Below are positions 41,428 to 52,283 of a stretch of DNA of 64,000 bases, one piece after another; position 1 is the stretch's first letter, and the number at the start of each line of letters is the position of its first letter. The translations under genes and the position numbers were made by a program. The notes under the pieces were generated by a model. That model made no database searches. It had not been told where the DNA came from and was given only the letters and a program-made list of their open reading frames with translations. This stretch comes from Bacteroidia bacterium. Lineage in GTDB: Bacteria; Bacteroidota; Bacteroidia; Bacteroidales; Paludibacteraceae. Location: the NCBI GenBank assembly GCA_009929375.1, contig SAAO01000016.1, positions 1-64,000 of the forward strand. Direction: 5' to 3'.

Positions 41428-41564
41428 TTTTGGTGCTCAAATGCAAAAAAATGTAAACATGCAACTTTTGGAACTAAACGCATGTAGTATTTTTTTTAAT
41501 TCATGCCCGTAGTTTTATTTAATTTGTATTTTTGCACACCAACAAACTTTCTTTATTCAGAAAG

Positions 41565-43179
41565 ATGTCTCATATGTATTCAAGGGTAAGTATTGTAATT
41601 GTATTCTGTGTTTTCATTTTTGCCGGATTTTCGTTTTTTCCCGGTGAAATCAAAACTGCCGAGCGTTTAATGGAAACTGCTCCCGATTCGGCATTGCAAA
41701 TTCTCCGAAACGTAAACTACGACAAATCTCTCTCCGCTGCCGAACGTGCCAACTACGGACTTCTGCTTTTCGAAGCCCTCGACAAAACATACCAACCACT
41801 CAAACCGGACTCTGTTCTTAATTTCTCAATAGATTACTACAAACGTAAAAGAAACTCCGAAAAACTTGCTAAAGGGTATTTTTATAAAGGGAGGTCGTAT
41901 AACTATGTTTTTCAATATGAAAATGCAAGCCGGTTTTATATGCTCGCTTTGGATAATTTGAAAGGGACTAATGATTATAATTTACTAGCTAAGATTTATT
42001 CTGATTTGGGTGATATTTGTACAGCTCAGAATGATTTTGAACAAGCTAGAGATAAATACTTACAATCAGTCAGTTTTTTTGAAAGAGCAGGCAAGTTCAA
42101 TGAAGCTTTGTATGATAGAATTGATATTGGAAATACATATAGAAGTCAACGTGAATTCAGAAAGGCACATGGAATTTTCCTTGACATCTTGAATACTGCT
42201 AAAGATTCCGTATTAATCGGTATTACTTTACAAGAAATTGGAGTAAATTACTTTTGGGTTGAGAAGTATGATTCCTCAATTATTTTTTTAAAGAGAAGTG
42301 TAAAATATCCTTATCGTGATTATTATCAATCGATAAAATTTCTAAGACTTTCTGATTCATATTTTGAAATTGGAAAATTGGATTCAGCTCTACTTTACGC
42401 AAAAAAAATCACTTACATATCCTGCGAATTTTTACACAAAGCGTGAGTGTTACAGAGTACTAGCAAATACTGCGTATCTAAACGGGAATTACAAGGAGAT
42501 GGCTGGTTATATGACATATTATCAAGCAATGTCTGATTCTGTAAGGATAATCGATACTCATACAAAATCAACAATAATTGAAGATATTCATGTTGCGAAA
42601 GAAAAGGTGAGTAAAGCTAAAACGTGGTTGTGGACTAGTTTGAGTATATTACCAGCGTTTTTACTTGTTGGAGTGCTGATTTACATTCGTTTGCAGAGTC
42701 GCAGAAGGGGGGCTGAAGTTGAATTAGAACAAAAGTCTGAAAAGCTTGTTGTTTTTGAACAGAAACTTCATGAGAATCAAGAGCAACTCAGAAGTAATTT
42801 AATTTTCAAGATAGATGAATTAAAGAGGCGTGAATTTAATAAAATTAAACGACCTACTTTGTTTGAAAGACAAGAGATTGAAAGGAGAGTATTTCTTGAA
42901 TGTCTTTATTTTGATGATACTTCTTCTTTTGATACATTAATGAGTCTTACATTCAATAATATTGTGGATAAGCTAAATAAAGCTCACCCGGAATTATCGA
43001 GAAATGAATTGATGTATTGCTGCTTAATTTTGCTTGAGTTGTCAAATCAGGAAATTCTTTTAATACTCCAACTTCAACTAAATTCAATTTATAAAATAAA
43101 GCAGCGGATTGCACAAAAGTTTAATCTTTTTAGTACTACGGAAATTGTCCCCTATCTGCAAAAACTTTGGCTTAATTAA
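41565..43179 (+). pseudogene. Frameshifted transmembrane TPR-HTH regulator (homologue of 47378-52236 genes)
   Basis: Two overlapping frames together make one protein like the three 532-residue regulators downstream. The first runs from ATG 41565 through TPR-like repeats to LLYAKK at 42401. The second continues with SLTYPANFYTKRECYR, a membrane helix (LWTSLSILPAFLLVGVLIYI), a coiled coil and a degenerate HTH (LSRNELMYCCLILLELSNQE). The shift falls in a run of eight A at 42401-42408, where seven would restore the frame. Either the gene is inactive, or the A8 tract allows slippage or phase change. A -7-like TATTTTTG (41527-41534) lies upstream. Bases are AT-rich from about 41900. Confidence 0.85.
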
Positions 43180-43376
43180 TGAAATCGCTTGCTTTATTAT
43201 ACAATTTGCGATCTTGTCTTAATTTGTTTTTTTTGTAGCTTGTAATATTTTGTAAATCTGTGTTTTGTAAATGCGTCATGTCTTAAAAGTATGTGTTTAT
43301 TATTTTGTAATCTTAATGACTAAAGACTAATTTAGCGTGAGGTAAATCACAAAATTTAAATTTTAAAATCAAAGGT

Positions 43377-43769
43377 ATGAAAACGCAGAAATTTACTTTC
43401 CTGATTTTTATTATGCTTACATCTTGTTTCACAACTTCACAATTTGTTTACGCTGATGATGTTCCTCTTAAGCGAGATGCAAATATTGGTAACGATGCTG
43501 TTAATAATACTAGCCATCGTACCCGTATTTACATTCCTCTCTCTGTTTCTTTCGAATCCGGAGAACTCTCATTATTCTTCGAAAGCAGTGTAGGAATGTG
43601 TAATGTGTCTGTTGAAGACGAAAATGGTAACGTACAAATGTCAGAAATTATCGACACCGATAATGGAACTGAATTCTGGTTAGATTTGACCGGCTTAAGT
43701 ACAGGTTTACATTATGTAAAAATCAGCTACGGCTCCATTAATTTAATTGGGGAATTCTATGTAGAGTAA
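43377..43769 (+). CDS. Secreted DUF3244 protein
   Basis: The 130-residue protein has a signal peptide cleaved near QFVYADD. It is followed by a single beta-sandwich domain of the DUF3244 type (IYIPLSVSFESGELSLFFES, VSVEDENGNVQMSEI, LTGLSTGLHYVKISYGS). This fold resembles the beta-sandwich of T9SS sorting domains. It lies 197 bp after the frameshifted TPR regulator in the same direction and has its own terminator. The function of the family is unknown. A role as ligand or target of the TPR receptors is a guess from location. Confidence 0.8.
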   Translation: MKTQKFTFLIFIMLTSCFTTSQFVYADDVPLKRDANIGNDAVNNTSHRTRIYIPLSVSFESGELSLFFESSVGMCNVSVEDENGNVQMSEIIDTDNGTEFWLDLTGLSTGLHYVKISYGSINLIGEFYVE

Positions 43770-43863: not shown

Positions 43864-45012
43864 TTAATAAGCGTGGCTGTCGTTATTTACATCGGCAATG
43901 TCAGTTCGCTTTTTTTCCATTGATCTCCATGCGTAGAAAATGTATCCCAACACAAATGGTATCAGAATTGATACGTACGACATGGCTGTAAGCGTAAACT
44001 GGCTCGAAGACGAGTTAAATATAGTCAGCGAGCTTTGCAGGTCTGTCGACGAAGGATAATACGCTGTATTGTTGAAGCCGGCAATCAGCAGAAGCGAGCA
44101 AACAGTAAGTACAGTTCCGGTTCCACTAAACCAGATCCCTTTGCGGAAAGTTTTTGATAACATCGACCAAATAATACCTGTAAGCACCAAAACCACACCT
44201 GCAAGGAATGTGATCATTACTATCGGCATTTCAATTAAATTGTTGAAGTATTTGAATTGTTCGAGGCTTACTTCTCCTGTGGCCGGATTTACATCAAATC
44301 CTTTACCCACGAGTATCCAAATTACAAAAGTCAGGAAAAATACCACAAATGGTATGGCATTATAAAACAGGTATTTGTACGATCTGTCTTCAAGTGCTTT
44401 GTCGTTCAGTCGGTTGATAAGAAACAATAAAGCATTTGTACGTGCAAGGAAAAACACTGTAAGTCCCAAAGCCCAGTTTCGTGGTTCCAATAAAGCTTCT
44501 AATCCATGCCAGCCATTGCCCCACTGACTGATAGCAGGAGCCAGTTGTTGAGCAATATTTCCTTTGTTGACCGTGAAATCGGAACCTGTAAAGAAAGTAG
44601 CAACAGCGGCTCCAATCAGGAATGTACCAAGATACCCATTAATAAGCAAAAAAGTTCTATATGTAGTTTTGCCATAGATATTACCTGCTTTAGACTGAAA
44701 TTCGAAAGAAACAGCCTGTATTACAAAGCAAAATAATATAATCATCCAAACCCAGTAAGCTCCTCCAAAACTTGTTGAATAGAAAAGAGGAAATGAGGCA
44801 AAAAATGCTCCTCCGAAAGTTACAAGTGTTGTAAAGGTAAATTCCCATTTACGGCCAAGTACATTTACTAAAAGACGTTTTTCATCTTCGGTTTTTGAAA
44901 GACTGAAGAGCATTGATTGACCACCCTGAATAAACAGCAAGAAAGTCAAAAGTCCTCCCAGCAATGAGATAATAAACCACCAATAGTGCTGTAAAATTGA
45001 ATATGTTGTCAT
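43864..45012 (-). CDS. cydB: Cytochrome bd oxidase subunit II (CydB)
   Basis: The 382-residue protein has nine hydrophobic helices in the CydB pattern, starting with HYWWFIISLLGGLLTFLLFI and including GRKWEFTFTTLVTFGGAFFA and MSYVSILIPFVLGYIFYAW. Together with CydA it forms the quinol oxidase that reduces O2 at high affinity in the inner membrane. It lies 59 bp after cydA on the same strand, so both form an operon. No cydX-like small gene or cydCD pair was seen in the window. Confidence 0.95.
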   Translation of the reverse strand: MTTYSILQHYWWFIISLLGGLLTFLLFIQGGQSMLFSLSKTEDEKRLLVNVLGRKWEFTFTTLVTFGGAFFASFPLFYSTSFGGAYWVWMIILFCFVIQAVSFEFQSKAGNIYGKTTYRTFLLINGYLGTFLIGAAVATFFTGSDFTVNKGNIAQQLAPAISQWGNGWHGLEALLEPRNWALGLTVFFLARTNALLFLINRLNDKALEDRSYKYLFYNAIPFVVFFLTFVIWILVGKGFDVNPATGEVSLEQFKYFNNLIEMPIVMITFLAGVVLVLTGIIWSMLSKTFRKGIWFSGTGTVLTVCSLLLIAGFNNTAYYPSSTDLQSSLTIFNSSSSQFTLTAMSYVSILIPFVLGYIFYAWRSMEKKRTDIADVNNDSHAY

Positions 45013-45071
45013 AATTTTATTCTTTTATTGTGTAATAACTTTTTGTATGAATTCGATTCAATGTAGATTGA

Positions 45072-46625
45072 TTAGTGTTGCTCTGTTTCAGGTCCTTTTT
45101 TTATTTGTTTAGCCATTATTCTCACCTCTGCAATAAGTAGTGCTGTGAAAAGTGCTGCAAATAGAAAAACTGTGATTTTTACCGATTCCACCGAGATACC
45201 TGATATTGCAGCTTGTAATGGAAGTACATCCTGGATAGCCCAGGGCTGACGGCCCATTTCTGCAACTATCCAACCTACCTGGCTGGCCACATAGCCCATC
45301 GGAATTGTAAATAATGCTGCGTACGATAGCCAGTTTGCATTTTGCATTTTCCGGCGGTACAACATGAATACCAAAAGTGCAAAAAGTGCTAGGAAATACA
45401 TTCCTAAACCCACCATTATATGAAAAGCATAAAATACAATTGGTATGTTAGGGATAATATCTTCTGGTTTGTCGAGATATCCGTAGCCAAAATGCGGATA
45501 ATTCTCGCGTAGTACTGCTTTGTGAATTTGTGCATTGGCAGTATCTTTCTCCGACATGGCTTTTTTATACTCGTTAAGAGCTGTTTGTGCTTTTTTTCCT
45601 TTTACTTTTCGCTCCTCAAACGAAAGAGCTGTTCCTTCGGGCGTTTCGTAGCCACCCTCAATAATATCTTTTACACCGGGAACAAAGGCGTTAAAATCTC
45701 TGTATCCTAAAAATGAAAGTAAGCCCGGAACAGGAACTTTTACCGACACGATATAAGGGTCGATACTGTCATTGTATGTTTTTTCCGGATTTAATACAGC
45801 TATGGCAAGCAGATCGGCGTTTGTTTTTCCTTCATAGAGGCCTTCCATCGCAGCGAGTTTCATTGGTTGACGCTGTGCAACGTGATAAGCTGAGCCATCG
45901 CCTGTCCAGATAATTAAAACTGAGGATATGAGCCCGAAAATGGCTCCAACCCATAAACTTTTAATCGCAAAATCAACTTCACGTTTTTTTATCAAAAACC
46001 AGCCACTGATTCCAACTACAAACAAGGCGCCAACCACCCAGCTTGAAACTATGGTGTGCAGAAACTTGTTTATAGCAATGGGTGAAAGGACTACGGCCCA
46101 AAAATCAACCATTTCGTTTCGAACAGTGTCTGGGTTAAATTCCATCCCTACAGGATACTGCATCCAGGCATTAGCTATCAGAATCCAAAGTGCCGAAAGC
46201 GTAGCTCCAAGAGCAGTAAGCCATGTGGCAGCAAGGTGGAATTTTTTACTTACCTTATTCCAGCCAAAAAACATAATGGAGATAAAGGTAGCTTCCATAA
46301 AAAATGCTAAAATACCTTCGATTGCCAGTGGTGCTCCGAAAATATCGCCTACAAACCAACTGTAGTTTGACCAGTTTGTTCCAAACTGAAATTCCATAAT
46401 AATTCCTGTCGCAACCCCAATTGCAAAATTAATTCCGAAAATTGTCATCCAGAATTTGGTCACCTTCTTCCATTTTTCATCACCGGTTTTCAGATAAATG
46501 CTCTCCATTATGGCCATAATTACTCCCAGGCCAAGTGTAAGAGGAACAAAAATCCAGTGATACATAGCTGTTAACGCAAATTGCGCTCTCGACCAATTGA
46601 CTAATGCAGCATCAAGTAGTTCCAT
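45072..46625 (-). CDS. cydA: Cytochrome bd oxidase subunit I (CydA)
   Basis: The 517-residue protein carries the N-terminal haem ligand His23 (ALTAMYHWIFVPLTLGLG) and a second His in NKFLHTIVSSW. The Q-loop region starts at GDGSAYHVAQRQPMKLAAME, and GRQPW stands near the C-terminus. The Q-loop side carries an extra segment between about residues 280 and 380 (YNDSIDPYIVSVKVPVPGLL to RENYPHFGYG), as in many Bacteroidetes. It oxidises quinol and holds haems b558, b595 and d. A consensus promoter lies about 230 bp upstream. Confidence 0.96.
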   Translation of the reverse strand: MELLDAALVNWSRAQFALTAMYHWIFVPLTLGLGVIMAIMESIYLKTGDEKWKKVTKFWMTIFGINFAIGVATGIIMEFQFGTNWSNYSWFVGDIFGAPLAIEGILAFFMEATFISIMFFGWNKVSKKFHLAATWLTALGATLSALWILIANAWMQYPVGMEFNPDTVRNEMVDFWAVVLSPIAINKFLHTIVSSWVVGALFVVGISGWFLIKKREVDFAIKSLWVGAIFGLISSVLIIWTGDGSAYHVAQRQPMKLAAMEGLYEGKTNADLLAIAVLNPEKTYNDSIDPYIVSVKVPVPGLLSFLGYRDFNAFVPGVKDIIEGGYETPEGTALSFEERKVKGKKAQTALNEYKKAMSEKDTANAQIHKAVLRENYPHFGYGYLDKPEDIIPNIPIVFYAFHIMVGLGMYFLALFALLVFMLYRRKMQNANWLSYAALFTIPMGYVASQVGWIVAEMGRQPWAIQDVLPLQAAISGISVESVKITVFLFAALFTALLIAEVRIMAKQIKKGPETEQH

Positions 46626-46853
46626 AATAATCCTTTTTTGTGTGTATTACAATTTAATGTCTGTTTATTTCTTTTAGTTAGTTCCGGAGAAGTGGGTTAC
46701 TGTTTATATTTCAATTTGTTCAAAATATACAGTTTGATGTAAGTCTGCCCGTCTGACATAAGCTATTTGTAATTCAATTGTTTACATAGTGTTTTAATTC
46801 TGCGTGATTTGAGAATACTTATGTCTTAAAAATGTCTGACAATTTTTAACGCA

Positions 46854-47377: not shown

Positions 47378-48976
47378 CTATTCTCCGTAAGTGTTTTTCA
47401 AAAAGTCATCAAGTTCGCGGGTCGATGAAAGTTCAAGCTTTTGTGCGAGTCGCTGACGGATTTTGTAAAGCCCGTTCGAGGTAGTTTCGAGCAAAACCAT
47501 GGCATGATTCTGAGGGATGTCGAGCAGCACAAAGCAACAATAAAGCATTTCCTTTTGATTGATTGCCGGAAATTTAATAGCTAACTCGCAGACCATATTG
47601 TTGTATGCTGCATTTATTTTCTGACTGAAAAGTGCGTAGTCGTTTAGCTGTAATGCCTGATTGTAGATTTCGAAAACCGCTTCGTCGCTCAGCAGAACAT
47701 CAGCATTTTTCTTGCCATTGCTTTTCAATGCTTTGTTTTTATCAATAAGTTCTTTTAGGCTTTCGCGCAGCATAAATTTATTCTGTTTTTTTTCGTTTAT
47801 ACTTACGCTCAAAGATGCTTCTACTGCCTTTTTCTGCTCAGAAATTTTTCTGTTTCTTTTTATAAACCAGTACGAAATGAAAATTCCAATAGTCAGAATC
47901 AGCGCAATTAGGGAAATAAGCCAATAAACCTGACCTGATTTCTTTTTTGCTTTCGTAGTGGATAGGTGTGCCTGCTCAATGACTGTTGCTTTGGTCTGGC
48001 TATCAATTTTACTGACAGAATCAACCATAGTTTGATAATGGGTCATATATTCGGCCATGGTTTTAAAGTCTTTCTTTAAATAACATGTGTTTGCAAGAAT
48101 ACGATAGCATTCACGTTTGGTGTAAAAATTGCCCGGAAATTCAAGAGACATTTTAGCGAAATACATTGCAGAATCATGTCGATTAAGCTCATAATAGGTA
48201 TCAGCAAGTCTTAGTAATCTGATTGAATTATAAAATGCGGTATGAGGGTATTTTATACTTTTTTTCAAATAAGATAATGCTGAATCAAATTTGTTATGCC
48301 AAAAAAAATTTATTCCTATTTCCTGTAAAGCTATTCCGGTCAAAAGCGAGTCATCGGAGTTTTTTAATATATCAATGTAAATTTCATGTGCTTCGTTAAA
48401 TTTTCTTTCAGTTCTAAAAGTGTTTCCAATATCCATTTTTACAAAGCATGCATCCGTACTATCACCATCTAAGTGAAAACATACAATAGTCTTTTGGAAC
48501 TTTTCTCTAGCATTCTTAAAATCACCTTGAACAACAGAAATACGAGCCAAATCTGAGTAAATCTTAGCCAGTAAATTATATTCTTGACTCCCATTCAAAT
48601 TATCCAAAGCAAACATATATAATTTAGTTGCATTCTCATATTGATATACATAGTTATACATCCTACCCTTGTAAAACAGCGCCTCGCCCAGTTTTTCCTT
48701 GTCATTTTTATCCTGATAAAACTTTATTGAGAAGTTTATCAATGAATCCGGAGTAAGTGACAGATAGTTTTTATCCAGTGCTTTAAACATTAGAATTCCA
48801 TAAAGTGCCTTATTTCTATCGGATTTTTCGTTTTGATAATCAATTTCTCTCAGGACTTTTAATGCCGAGTCGGGTTGCGTCTCAATAATTTCTTCAGCCA
48901 GACGAAGCTTTTGGGAAGTTTGTTGGCAAGAAGTCAGTATGACTATTAGAGAGAAGAAATACAGTAATTGTTTCAT
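47378..48976 (-). CDS. Transmembrane TPR-HTH regulator, copy 1
   Basis: The 532-residue protein begins with a lipoprotein signal (lipobox LTSC), then TPR-like repeats (about 90-330; ALFYKGRMYNYVYQYENATK, LLAKIYSDLA, IALQEIGINFFW). A membrane helix lies near 352-375 (VYWLISLIALILTIGIFISY), followed by a coiled coil, and a GerE-like but degenerate HTH ends the protein (INQKEMLYCCFVLLDIPQNH, GLYKIRQRLAQKLEL). The topology implies a periplasmic sensor and a cytoplasmic DNA-binding part in one chain. It is the last gene of a three-gene operon, 35 bp after copy 2. Its first ~103 and last ~245 residues are almost identical to copy 2, while the middle is closer to copy 3. Target genes are unknown. 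Confidence 0.85.
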   Translation of the reverse strand: MKQLLYFFSLIVILTSCQQTSQKLRLAEEIIETQPDSALKVLREIDYQNEKSDRNKALYGILMFKALDKNYLSLTPDSLINFSIKFYQDKNDKEKLGEALFYKGRMYNYVYQYENATKLYMFALDNLNGSQEYNLLAKIYSDLARISVVQGDFKNAREKFQKTIVCFHLDGDSTDACFVKMDIGNTFRTERKFNEAHEIYIDILKNSDDSLLTGIALQEIGINFFWHNKFDSALSYLKKSIKYPHTAFYNSIRLLRLADTYYELNRHDSAMYFAKMSLEFPGNFYTKRECYRILANTCYLKKDFKTMAEYMTHYQTMVDSVSKIDSQTKATVIEQAHLSTTKAKKKSGQVYWLISLIALILTIGIFISYWFIKRNRKISEQKKAVEASLSVSINEKKQNKFMLRESLKELIDKNKALKSNGKKNADVLLSDEAVFEIYNQALQLNDYALFSQKINAAYNNMVCELAIKFPAINQKEMLYCCFVLLDIPQNHAMVLLETTSNGLYKIRQRLAQKLELSSTRELDDFLKNTYGE

Positions 48977-49011
48977 GTGTAGTAAGAATCTGAGTGGTTA
49001 TTTCGTTTATC

Positions 49012-50610
49012 TTATTGTCCGTAAGTGTTTTTCAGAAAGTCGTCGAGCTCGCGTGTGGATTCAAGTTCGAGTTTTTGTGCGAGTCGTTGACGGATTTTGT
49101 AAAGCCCATTCGAGGTAGTTTCGAGCAAAACCATGGCATGATTCTGAGGAATGTCGAGAAGAATAAAACTACAATAAAGCATTTCCTTTTGATTGATTGC
49201 TGGAGATTTAATGGCTAACTCGCAGACCATATTATTGTATGCTGCATTTATCTTCTGGCTGAAAAGTGCGTAGTCGTTTAGCTGTAATGCCTGATTGTAT
49301 ATTTCGACGATAGTTTCGTCACTCAGCAGAATATCAGCATTCTTTTTACCATTGCTTTTCAATGCTTTGTTTTTATCAATAAGTTCTTTCAAACTTTCTC
49401 TCAGCATAAATTTATTCTGTTCTTTTTCGTTTATGCTTACGCTTAAAGATGCTTCTACTGCTTTTTTCTGCTCGGAAATTATTCTGTTTCTTCGTATAAA
49501 CCTGTATGAAATGAAAATTACAAGAGCCAGAATCAGCGCGATTAGAGAAATAAGCCAATAAACCTGACCTGATTTCTTTTTTGCTTTCGTAGTGGATAGG
49601 TGTGCCTGCTCAATGACTGTTGCTTTGGTTTGGATTTCAATTTTTCCAACAGAATCAGACATGGCCTGATAATGGGTCATGTGTTCGGCCATGGTTTTAA
49701 AGTCCTTCTTTAAATAGCATGTGTTTGCAAGAATACGATAGCATTCCTTCTTTGTATAAAAAGTTGCTGGAAACTTCAAAGCCATTTCTGCATGATAGCG
49801 TGCAGAGTCATAACTATTCAATTCAAAATATGAATCAGAAAGTTTATAATGTCTAATCGACTGATTATATCCAATATGCGGATAATAAATGCTCCTTTTT
49901 AGATAATAAGCTGCTGAATCATAGTTTGTTTTAAAGAAATAAGTAATTCCGATTTCCTGTAGAGCAATTCCCATTAATGTTGAATCTATTGTATTGTCAA
50001 ATATAGACTTGAAAATATCGTGTGCGGTTTTAAAATCCCCTTCACTTCTATATGTTTTTCCAATATCAAGTTGTCTATACTGTGCATCTTTATCTCTCCC
50101 TGAAGCATTACTATATTTGATTGCAAGATTGTATTTGTTTCTTGCATCTTTGAATTCTTTTTGTGTTGAACATATTTCACCCAAATCAGAATAGATTTTG
50201 GCTAAAAGATCATACTCTTGGCTGTGTATTATGTTGTTAAGAGCAAGAATATATGTATTAGTGGCTTCAGCAAATTGAAAGACATACTTATATGATCTTC
50301 CTTTATAAAACAGAGCCTCACCCAGTTTCTCATTGTCATTCTTATCCAGATAAAATTCTATTGAAAAATTTATCAATGAATCCGGAGTAAGTGACAGATA
50401 ATTTTTATCCAACGCTTTAAACATTAGAATTCCATAGAGCGCTTTATTTCTATCGGATTTTTCGTTTTGAAAATCAATTTCTCTCAGGATTTTTAGTGCA
50501 GAGTCGGGTTGAGTTTCAATGATTTCTTCAGCCAGACGAAGCTTTTGGGAAGTTTGCTGGCAGGAAGTTAGTACGATTATTATAATGAAGAAATACAGTA
50601 ATTGTTTCAT
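49012..50610 (-). CDS. Transmembrane TPR-HTH regulator, copy 2
   Basis: This is a second 532-residue paralogue with the same layout: lipobox LTSC, TPR-like sensor, membrane helix (VYWLISLIALILALVIFISY), coiled coil and C-terminal HTH (INQKEMLYCSFILLDIPQNH). Residues about 104-285 differ strongly from copies 1 and 3 (GRSYKYVFQFAEATNTYILA, KYSNASGRDKDAQYRQLDIG). The ends are nearly identical to copy 1, also at the DNA level. The equal length despite divergence suggests a fixed fold with a variable sensor surface. It lies 27 bp after copy 3 and 35 bp before copy 1. Confidence 0.85.
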   Translation of the reverse strand: MKQLLYFFIIIIVLTSCQQTSQKLRLAEEIIETQPDSALKILREIDFQNEKSDRNKALYGILMFKALDKNYLSLTPDSLINFSIEFYLDKNDNEKLGEALFYKGRSYKYVFQFAEATNTYILALNNIIHSQEYDLLAKIYSDLGEICSTQKEFKDARNKYNLAIKYSNASGRDKDAQYRQLDIGKTYRSEGDFKTAHDIFKSIFDNTIDSTLMGIALQEIGITYFFKTNYDSAAYYLKRSIYYPHIGYNQSIRHYKLSDSYFELNSYDSARYHAEMALKFPATFYTKKECYRILANTCYLKKDFKTMAEHMTHYQAMSDSVGKIEIQTKATVIEQAHLSTTKAKKKSGQVYWLISLIALILALVIFISYRFIRRNRIISEQKKAVEASLSVSINEKEQNKFMLRESLKELIDKNKALKSNGKKNADILLSDETIVEIYNQALQLNDYALFSQKINAAYNNMVCELAIKSPAINQKEMLYCSFILLDIPQNHAMVLLETTSNGLYKIRQRLAQKLELESTRELDDFLKNTYGQ

Positions 50611-50637
50611 ATTTAGTTTGTTGTTGGGCAGAATTAT

Positions 50638-52236
50638 TTATTTTCCGTAAGTACTTTTCAGAAAATCGTCAAGTTCGCGGGTTGAGCTAAGTTCAAGTTT
50701 TTGCGCGAGTCGCTGGCGGATTTTGTATAGTCCGTTCGGGGTGGTCTCGAGTAAAACCATGGCATGATTCTGAGGAATGTCGAGAAGAATAAAACTACAA
50801 TAAAGCATTTCCTTTTGGCTGATAGCTGGAAATTTGATAGTCAATTCGCAAATCATATTGTTGTATGCAGCATTTATTTTCTGACTAAACGCCTCGTAAT
50901 TATTGATTTGCAGTGCCTGTGTGTAGATTTCCAGAACAGTTTCGTCGTTTAGCAGAACATGAGCATTCTTTTTTCCATTGCTTTTCAGTGCTTTATTTTT
51001 TTCGATAAGATCTTTCATGCTTTCACGAAGCATTGTTTTATTCTGCTCAATTTCAGATTTACTGTTTTTGAGCGAGTTTTCCATAGTTCTTTTTTGTTCT
51101 GAGATTATTCTGTTTTTTCTGATAAAACGATACAAAATATAGATACCAGCACCCATAATGAGGATTATAAGGGCGATCAGCCAATAAATCTGACCCGATT
51201 TTTCCTTCACTTTAGTGTTGGATTGATGGATATCTTCAATTATGGTTGCCTTGGTTTGTATATCGATTTTTCTGATAGAGTCGGACATGGTTTGATAATG
51301 TGTCATGTATCCGGCCATGGTTTTAAAGTCTTTTTTCAGATAACAGGAATTTGCAAGAATACGATAGCATTCACGCTTGGTATGAAATGTTGCAGGATAG
51401 GTTAGTGATTCGTGAGCATAAAATAATGCTGAATCTAATTTAAGTAACTCATAATAAGCATCAGCAAGCACATACAATCTAACAGATTTATTGATATCAA
51501 CAAAAGGATAGTCTAAGCTTTTTTTTAAATAGTAAATCGTAGAGTCGTATACATTTTCCCAAAAAAAGGCAACACCAATTTCCTGTAGTACAAGTCCGGA
51601 TATAATTGAATCGGTTGAATTAGAAAATACTTCATTGTATATTTGATGTGCTTTATCAAATTTTTTCTCGAATCTATAAACATTTGCGATGTTAATCTTT
51701 TCCTTTAGTACATTCTTATTATTATTTGTTTTAGATGCATAAAACACAGCTTTGTGAAATTTTCCTAATGCTTTCTCAAACTCATTTTGAATAACAGAAA
51801 TACGACCCAGGTCAGAATAGACTTTGGCCAATAAATCATAATTTTCACTTCCTTCAAGATTGTCCAATGCAAGCATGTATAATTTAGTTGCATTCTCATA
51901 TTGATATGCATCGTTATACATTCTGCCTTTGTAAAACAAAGCTTCACCCAGTTTCTCATTGTCTTTTTTGTTTTGATAAAATGTTATCGAAAAGTTGATA
52001 AGGGAATCAGGAGTAAGATCAAGGTAGTTTTTATCAAGCGCTTTAAACATGAGGATTCCGTAAAGTGCTTTCTCACTTTGGGTTTTCTCTTTTTTATAAT
52101 CAATTTCTTTGAGTATTTTTAATGCAGAATCGGGCTGAGAATCAATAATTTCTTCAACCAACTGTAGTTTTTGGGATGAGTGCTGGCATGAGGCCAGAAA
52201 TAGCAGTAAGAGTGTCAGATAAATTATTTGTCTCAT
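50638..52236 (-). CDS. Transmembrane TPR-HTH regulator, copy 3 (first gene of operon)
   Basis: The third 532-residue paralogue has lipobox LASC, TPR-like repeats, a membrane helix (IYWLIALIILIMGAGIYILY), a coiled coil (KRTMENSLKNSKSEIEQNKT) and the C-terminal HTH (ISQKEMLYCSFILLDIPQNH). It is the most divergent of the three at its ends. A consensus promoter (52253-52283) lies directly before its ATG and probably drives all three genes. Relatives with a TPR part, a membrane helix and a GerE-like end are common in Bacteroidales, but I know of no described role. Confidence 0.85.
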   Translation of the reverse strand: MRQIIYLTLLLLFLASCQHSSQKLQLVEEIIDSQPDSALKILKEIDYKKEKTQSEKALYGILMFKALDKNYLDLTPDSLINFSITFYQNKKDNEKLGEALFYKGRMYNDAYQYENATKLYMLALDNLEGSENYDLLAKVYSDLGRISVIQNEFEKALGKFHKAVFYASKTNNNKNVLKEKINIANVYRFEKKFDKAHQIYNEVFSNSTDSIISGLVLQEIGVAFFWENVYDSTIYYLKKSLDYPFVDINKSVRLYVLADAYYELLKLDSALFYAHESLTYPATFHTKRECYRILANSCYLKKDFKTMAGYMTHYQTMSDSIRKIDIQTKATIIEDIHQSNTKVKEKSGQIYWLIALIILIMGAGIYILYRFIRKNRIISEQKRTMENSLKNSKSEIEQNKTMLRESMKDLIEKNKALKSNGKKNAHVLLNDETVLEIYTQALQINNYEAFSQKINAAYNNMICELTIKFPAISQKEMLYCSFILLDIPQNHAMVLLETTPNGLYKIRQRLAQKLELSSTRELDDFLKSTYGK

Positions 52237-52252: not shown

Positions 52253-52283
52253 CAAAGTTAATGAAACAATTTAATTCTAACAA
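52253..52283 (-). promoter_or_regulatory. Promoter of the TPR regulator operon
   Basis: On the minus strand, TTG is followed after 20 bases by TAACTTTG, an exact consensus match. The predicted leader to the ATG at 52236 is only about 10 bases. Confidence 0.75.

Follow-up and report, generated by a model that had tools for sequence, protein, structure and literature searches.

Three mosaic TPR-HTH proteins of a Bacteroidales genome and their predicted link to DUF3244 genes and paired promoter boxes

A mosaic operon of three TPR-HTH genes

The window analysed here is a 64,000-nucleotide (nt) stretch of a Bacteroidia bacterium of the family Paludibacteraceae (contig SAAO01000016.1), whose genome is labelled G000 in the genome sets and counts below. 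Three open reading frames (ORFs) of 532 amino acids (aa) each lie on the minus strand between positions 47378 and 52236, separated by gaps of 35 and 27 bp. They were called c3 (50638..52236, the first gene of the operon), c2 (49012..50610, the middle gene), and c1 (47378..48976, the last gene). An earlier note on this DNA, made without database searches, had described them as proteins combining a lipoprotein signal, a tetratricopeptide repeat (TPR) sensor, one membrane helix, and a helix-turn-helix (HTH) domain. The description agrees with the ORFs, with Pfam, with hydropathy, and with structure models and structural matches. Sequence and model together give the domain order as a lipobox with Cys17, a TPR superhelix, one membrane helix, a long helix, and a LuxR/GerE-like HTH. 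The start is of the lipoprotein type, and all 30 of the 30 family members aligned have Cys17. Pfam TPR matches were obtained for c1-c3 (TPR_12 at 2.5e-10 in c1). The 19-residue hydropathy at residue 350 is 2.4-2.8 in all three proteins, and the membrane segment covers residues ~350-372 of c1 (47861..47929), with equivalents at 49495-49563 in c2 and 51121-51189 in c3, all on the minus strand. By hydropathy and model, this single helix links the sensor to the HTH within one polypeptide. Lys and Arg residues number 5-6 after the segment and 3-4 before it, and the TPR domain probably lies outside the inner membrane.

The HTH occupies residues 473-532 of c1 (47381..47560) and the corresponding segments of c2 (49015-49194) and c3 (50641-50820), again on the minus strand. 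An AlphaFold2 model of c3 has a predicted local distance difference test (pLDDT) score of 87.9, and a model of the c3 C-terminus, which adopts the four-helix LuxR-type fold, has a score of 91.7. LuxR/NarL-type HTHs, judged by title, account for 48 of the 50 structural matches listed for this C-terminus. GerE (PF00196) was matched by Pfam in 5 of 31 family C-termini, the best at 7.1e-8. The c3 C-terminus alone gave no PF00196 match at E up to 1, and the gathering score of 23.5 bits was not reached. Among c1-c3 the HTHs are 90-93% identical.

How is divergence distributed along the three copies? Between c1 and c2 the best two-rate segment covers codons 102-288, with a likelihood ratio (LR) of 95, whereas 100 codon shuffles gave at most 14. 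The synonymous divergence (dS) of this pair is 1.40 in residues 104-285 versus 0.32-0.43 in the flanks, and 1.58 in residues 126-285 versus 0.34-0.47. In other words, c1 and c2 do not diverge uniformly, and the mosaic with a divergent middle that the earlier note had described is borne out. The flanks, which it had called nearly identical, are indeed similar, although the wording was slightly strong: identity is 88-95% at the aa level by block and 82-97% at the nt level per 20-codon window. The dS of c1/c3 and c2/c3 is 0.9-2.0 in every block. The divergent block, residues 104-285, corresponds to part of TPR1 to TPR5, with the register of the repeats assigned by eye, and lies at 48122..48667 in c1, 49756..50301 in c2, and 51382..51927 in c3, on the minus strand. 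A likeness of c1 to c3 at the start of this block had also been noted, and it is found in residues 101-125, where 20 sites pair c1 with c3, 4 pair c1 with c2, and 4 pair c2 with c3. In a tree of residues 126-285, c1 groups with c3 (support 99/97), whereas in the flank tree it groups, weakly, with c2 (81/54). The three copies form one clade in both trees. Recombination or gene conversion within the c1-c3 lineage, which had been suspected earlier, is well supported because of the dS contrast, the flip between the middle and flank trees, and the c1/c3 tract at residues 101-125. An independent three-copy array was found in genome G002, in which copies 1 and 2 have a dS of 0.19 in the HTH and a nonsynonymous divergence (dN) of 0.72 in the middle. 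The output domain of this pair is homogenised and the sensor is not. No pattern of homogenised HTH and divergent middle was found in the other two G002 pairs or in the arrays of G005 and G015.

A DUF3244 partner and paired promoter boxes

A fourth copy of the gene lies on the plus strand in two frames. Its N-terminal piece (41532..42446), recovered by the own-genome search, groups with c1-c3 (99/99). Its C-terminal piece (42364..43179) is placed with first-type orthologs (96/94), but its branch is long and the tree tool flagged the placement as unsure. The frameshift that had been reported at 42401 sits in an A8 tract (42401-42408), and sequencing error, slippage, or true loss may each have produced it. 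The features that follow copy 4 are additions to the original observation. They comprise, on the plus strand, a promoter box TGTCTTAA (43215..43222), a second TGTCTTAA box 64 bp after the first (43279..43286), a probable promoter consisting of TTTG, 20 bp, and TAATTTAG (43304..43335), and a gene for a 130-aa DUF3244 protein with a signal-like start (43377..43769; PF11589 at 9.5e-11). A sequence search for a solved DUF3244 structure gave one weak match, 4g5a (E 0.47). It is copy 4, not c1-c3 themselves, that pairs with a DUF3244 gene, and the two form the window's version of a regulator-DUF3244 locus seen in congeners.

Linkage between the two families was assessed in 40 genomes, the window's own included, with a neighbour defined as lying within 1.5 kb. 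A family regulator neighbours 29 of 33 stand-alone DUF3244 genes; 18 of the 29 are co-directional and downstream of the regulator, and 11 are divergent. In this set, five of 38 DUF3244 matches at E up to 4.7e-6 were dropped (frames of 545 to 1589 aa), as were all weaker ones. The four unlinked genes are G016:C142, G004:C224 (200 bp from a contig end), G017:C167, and G012:C354. Counted from the regulators, 29 of 68 listed matches have a DUF3244 neighbour, the 68 being hand-picked with most short or partial matches left out. In many congeners the common order is a DagK-like gene, a ComF-like gene (both named by eye), the regulator, DUF3244, and an HU-like gene, often with one or two further regulators. 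A protein of ~175-180 aa follows DUF3244 in many congeners and is not present in the window (L055:6958-7503, L056:5738-6274, L152:1904-2440); HU-DNA_bdg was tested by Pfam in L055 alone, and L056 and L152 were assigned by eye. In a sample of 198 genomes of the order, 17 have matches to the family profile at E up to 1e-40. Six genomes of other genera supplied nine regions for comparison, and DUF3244 adjoins the regulator in four of them (L159, L160, L161, and, divergently, L165).

Paired direct boxes at 64 or 65 bp precede 16 of the 18 co-directional DUF3244 genes. Over spacings of 40-100, the best direct repeat falls at 64 (12 regions) or 65 (two regions) in 14 of 15 regions tested, and the box repeat beats all 60 shuffles in 11 of the 15. 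The Bacteroidetes promoter consensus is TTTG/TAnnTTTG, and a TTTG/TAnnTTAG-like promoter lies 3' of the second box in most loci where DUF3244 follows a regulator. The letters of the boxes vary by species yet match within a promoter; TGTCCTAA, TGTCGCAC, and TGTCCAG are examples, and the window has TGTCTTAA. Exact-pattern scans covered 48 genus genomes (the window's own and 47 congeners), with spacings of 62-66 allowed. The TGTCTTAA pair occurs at five sites, all in G000, and at none in the 47 congeners. The TGTCCTAA pair occurs at 12 sites in seven genomes, all at 64. Likewise, three of four TGTCGCAC sites and six of seven TTGTCCAG sites are at 64, each scan giving one further site at 63 bp. 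These two were set aside, the former (G224) as an artefact of a local tandem repeat and the latter (G005) as likely chance. Reversed-pattern controls for the four scans gave 3, 2, 1, and 0 sites. Outside G000, 21 of 23 sites are at exactly 64; the spacings within G000 are 64, 65, 65, 66, and 66. DUF3244 is preceded by 14 of 26 box pairs when the two 63-bp sites are excluded (L166 by eye). A distant family's pair (L160) consists of TGTCCGTGAT twice, 68 bp apart. A third TGTCC was seen 19 bp after the first inside several TGTCC box pairs (L134, L133), and a short tandem array of TGTCGC units in L127 (G224:C9) mimics a box pair.

The five G000 sites point to candidate targets. In the window, the DUF3244 ORF begins 90 bp after the pair. 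At C105 a DUF4469 Ig-like protein follows at 107 bp, and at C104 a 68-aa protein follows at 118 bp, succeeded by a lipoprotein-like operon whose genes resemble, by eye, those beside the regulator-DUF3244 locus of G015 (L059). The remaining sites are C106, with a lipoprotein-like protein at 363 bp and an alpha/beta hydrolase behind it, and C100, with a 221-aa protein at 543 bp and no clear promoter. In other genomes, the loci that follow a box pair include DUF3244 operons carrying the HU-like gene, large proteins of secreted appearance, and a locus with an SpvB/FG-GAP protein.

Box type varies with HTH residue 501, the position before the recognition motif. In the LYK clade, Ala or Gly at 501 occurs with TGTCCTAA in 7 of 7 loci, Arg with TGTCGCAC-type boxes in 4 of 4 (one L061 box reads TGTCCCAC), and Asp with TGTCCAG in 3 of 3. 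Two singletons combine Val with TGTCTCAA and Asn with TGTCTTAA. Four of the loci (L132, L135, L142, and L166, in G224, G225, G226, and G240) were found by their box, with the HTH not known, and the adjacent HTH had the expected residue. Asn501 is common to c1-c3 and copy 4. Residue 501 is a marker rather than a code, because the groups coincide in part with clades and the boxes of the LK clade do not track the residue. The notion that second-type copies with Asp501 would use TGTCCAG was rejected, as it failed in G005, G007, G009, and G015.

Proposed mechanism and its alternatives

The account we favour, with modest confidence, is that c1-c3 are membrane one-component activators of a family that drives matched-box promoters, chiefly those of DUF3244 genes, and that the three sensors probably feed one TGTCTTAA output. 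The lipoprotein-type N-terminus and the TPR superhelix would sense a signal outside the inner membrane. The membrane helix and the long helix would relay it to the LuxR/GerE-like HTH in the cytoplasm. A LuxR-like dimer would then bind both boxes, which are 64-65 bp apart and closely precede the -33/-7 elements, and activate the promoter, foremost that of the neighbouring secreted DUF3244 gene. The architecture (by sequence and model), the mosaicism, the DUF3244 linkage, and the paired boxes are observed; the topology, binding of the boxes by the family, binding of TGTCTTAA by c1-c3, activation, and a ligand are inferred parts of the model. With divergent sensors and nearly the same HTH, held alike by gene conversion, c1-c3 would feed the five TGTCTTAA sites. 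They probably drive this set because the three sensors are joined to almost the same HTH and copy 4 carries a frameshift.

Several observations weigh against this account. Pfam gives no GerE match in c1-c3 at E up to 0.1, and the Foldseek E-values for the HTH are all >0.6. The sequence upstream of c3 showed no box pair. The HTHs of c1-c3 group with second-type array copies (89/76), not with the box-adjacent copy 4. The two co-directional misses, L065 and L121, have no box pair, and no TGTC-type pair was found at spacings of 62-67 upstream of the 11 divergent DUF3244 genes (L110-L120), one of which (L118) has a T-rich repeat at 66 that scores within the range of weaker accepted pairs. Orthologous promoters are not independent of one another. 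Two of the five box pairs in G000 have no sizeable ORF closer than 363 and 543 bp, respectively, and a clear -33/-7 element was not seen at L106. Residue 501 does not explain the LK clade boxes (L059, L065, L066, L070, L122), and the failed expectation for second-type Asp501 copies counts here too. In five of the nine other-genus regions DUF3244 is not beside the regulator (L157, L158, L162, cut by a contig end, L163, and L164). Two of these, L157 and L158, hold the G188 copies, which exceed the BT3442_fam cut-off and have no DUF3244 neighbour; they slightly lower our confidence in this account and in the broader proposal below.

The most serious alternative, which we consider less probable but well worth weighing, is that c1-c3 control other promoters and that the TGTCTTAA boxes belong to copy 4 alone, which would be expressed by slippage at the A8 tract or be intact in the living cell. 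The boxes adjoin copy 4, its frame break falls in a homopolymer, and its HTH groups, on a long branch, with first-type copies, whereas those of c1-c3 group with second-type ones. The pairs searched in G000 were TGTCTTAA, TGTCCTAA, TGTCGCAC, and TTGTCCAG, and other promoter sets are possible. Against this stands Asn501, which c1-c3 share with copy 4, while Asp is found at this position in the four second-type copies from G005, G007, and G009 and in one of the two from G015.

Is the middle block a sensor surface under diversifying selection, for self/non-self recognition or a variable ligand? We regard this as unlikely. Between c1 and c3 the dN is 0.43 in the middle versus 0.09-0.19 elsewhere, at high dS, and the ratio of middle to HTH dN is 4.8 for c1/c3 and 5.9 for c2/c3 versus 1.0-2.6 in five ortholog pairs. 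However, dN/dS in residues 126-285 is 0.27-0.36, so that the selection for different sensor surfaces proposed along with gene conversion is not shown. Ortholog pairs likewise show faster change in the middle than elsewhere, if less markedly than c1-c3 do. A hot spot in the concave groove was rejected, as variable positions of TPR2-5 number 13 of 20 on the concave face, 59 of 88 among other non-core positions, and 14 of 28 in the core. Nor were silent donor cassettes, as expected of a cassette-switching surface system, found in the genome (c3 query, E up to 1e-3; assembly of 122 contigs); the matches were c1-c3, both pieces of copy 4, and a single distant sequence (E 1.7e-5). No evidence for the suggested self/non-self sensing emerged.

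It is likewise improbable that another regulator uses the boxes and that the TPR-HTH/DUF3244 linkage has some other cause, for example DUF3244 being a ligand or partner of the sensor. Binding by the family is a prediction, and for several of the box pairs no family gene was seen in the vicinity; but the LYK-clade loci of G224, G225, G226, and G240 that were found by box had the HTH residue expected for it. Neutral decay, in which redundant duplicates drift in their sensors while chance conversion homogenises their ends without functional meaning, gains something from the higher, though still purifying, middle dN/dS and from the frameshift in the sibling copy 4, but we give it little credence given three intact ORFs despite a c1/c3 dS of 0.9-1.6 by block, a TPR2-5 core that varies less (14 of 28 versus 72 of 108 other positions, no core position differing in all three copies), and the recurrence of a homogenised-HTH array in G002.

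Relation to known systems and neighbouring features

The closest named family is BT3442 (NF053779), which is similar in length and matches c3, c2, and c1 weakly over their full length. E-values are 9.4e-28, 1e-25, and 8.8e-20 and scores 97.2, 90.5, and 70.9 bits for c1, c2, and c3, against a cut-off of 940 bits, which places them outside the family; the model's name carries no function. Among 393 genomes of the order the cut-off is passed in G188 alone (two copies), and it is passed in the control genome Bacteroides ihuae. We take BT_3441 of B. thetaiotaomicron to be a DUF3244 protein. In a 2010 paper (PMC2954219), the TPR protein BT_3442 also adjoins a small Ig-like protein, BT_3441, a homologue of BVU_0276, within a MACPF cluster. 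Two DUF3244 entries appear in iron-response tables of another paper (PMC10434189).

ToxR and CadC are transmembrane one-component regulators with an N-terminal winged HTH. The predicted topology of c1-c3 resembles theirs in joining an extracytoplasmic sensor, one membrane helix, and a DNA-binding domain in one chain, but c1-c3 differ in having a TPR sensor with a lipobox and a C-terminal LuxR/GerE-like HTH. RRNPP receptors (Rap, NprR, AimR) are cytoplasmic, and their HTH, where present, is N-terminal. The modelled TPR superhelix of c1-c3 has fold likeness to Rap and NprR, whereas the lipobox-like start, membrane segment, and C-terminal HTH set c1-c3 apart. The peptide sensing raised in the earlier note is suggested only by this likeness; APPBP2 (24.6), LGN (24.1), and MalT (22.9) score nearly as high. 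The HTH is like that of LuxR/GerE/NarL proteins (PF00196) in fold, while the sensor is unlike those of response regulators and acyl-homoserine lactone receptors. FimS of P. gingivalis (NF053520) weakly matches c1, c3, and copy 4 in their TPR half, but FimS is a histidine kinase and Pfam gave no kinase domain in c1-c3.

No description of a regulator-DUF3244-box system was found in the open-access literature, in keeping with the earlier remark that such a gene set has no described function. A broader proposal, which we make tentatively, is that this is an undescribed Bacteroidales signalling system in which TPR-LuxR regulators, secreted Ig-like DUF3244 proteins, and matched boxes at a fixed 64 bp, co-evolved with the HTH in each species, would give every species an insulated regulon of its own, made up of secreted and surface proteins. 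Tandem copies would supply several sensors for one output, and gene conversion of the output domain would preserve this arrangement. If true, the BT3442-like/DUF3244 family, of hitherto unassigned role, would gain a specific role, a DNA target that can be read from sequence, and a regulon open to testing, and the three-copy operon would clearly exemplify many inputs to one output, maintained by gene conversion. Paired boxes with fixed spacing and co-changing letters offer a natural experiment on changes of regulator and site specificity.

The c3-c2-c1 operon has a probable promoter of its own, read from the sequence as TTG, 20 bp, and TAACTTTG (52253..52283, minus strand). Scans around the operon gave 27 sigma-70-type promoter-like sites versus 23.1 expected and no terminator-like sites, and neither result was used as evidence. 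Two cydB- and cydA-like genes (43864-46625, by eye) separate copy 4 and DUF3244 from c1-c3. The distance from cydA to the array is ~58 kb in G005 and ~70 kb in G015, indicating that this region was rearranged; inversion of the cydA-c1-c3 segment out of an ancestral array is a candidate event. A lone exact TGTCTTAA box, possibly due to chance, lies between cydA and c1 (46822-46837, plus strand) and has no partner at 64 bp. In other genomes, box pairs lie near large secreted-looking proteins (L150:4102-6000, L151:2-2215, L148:1687-2655), one with SpvB/FG-GAP and the others YD-repeat-like by eye, hinting at control of competition-type proteins.

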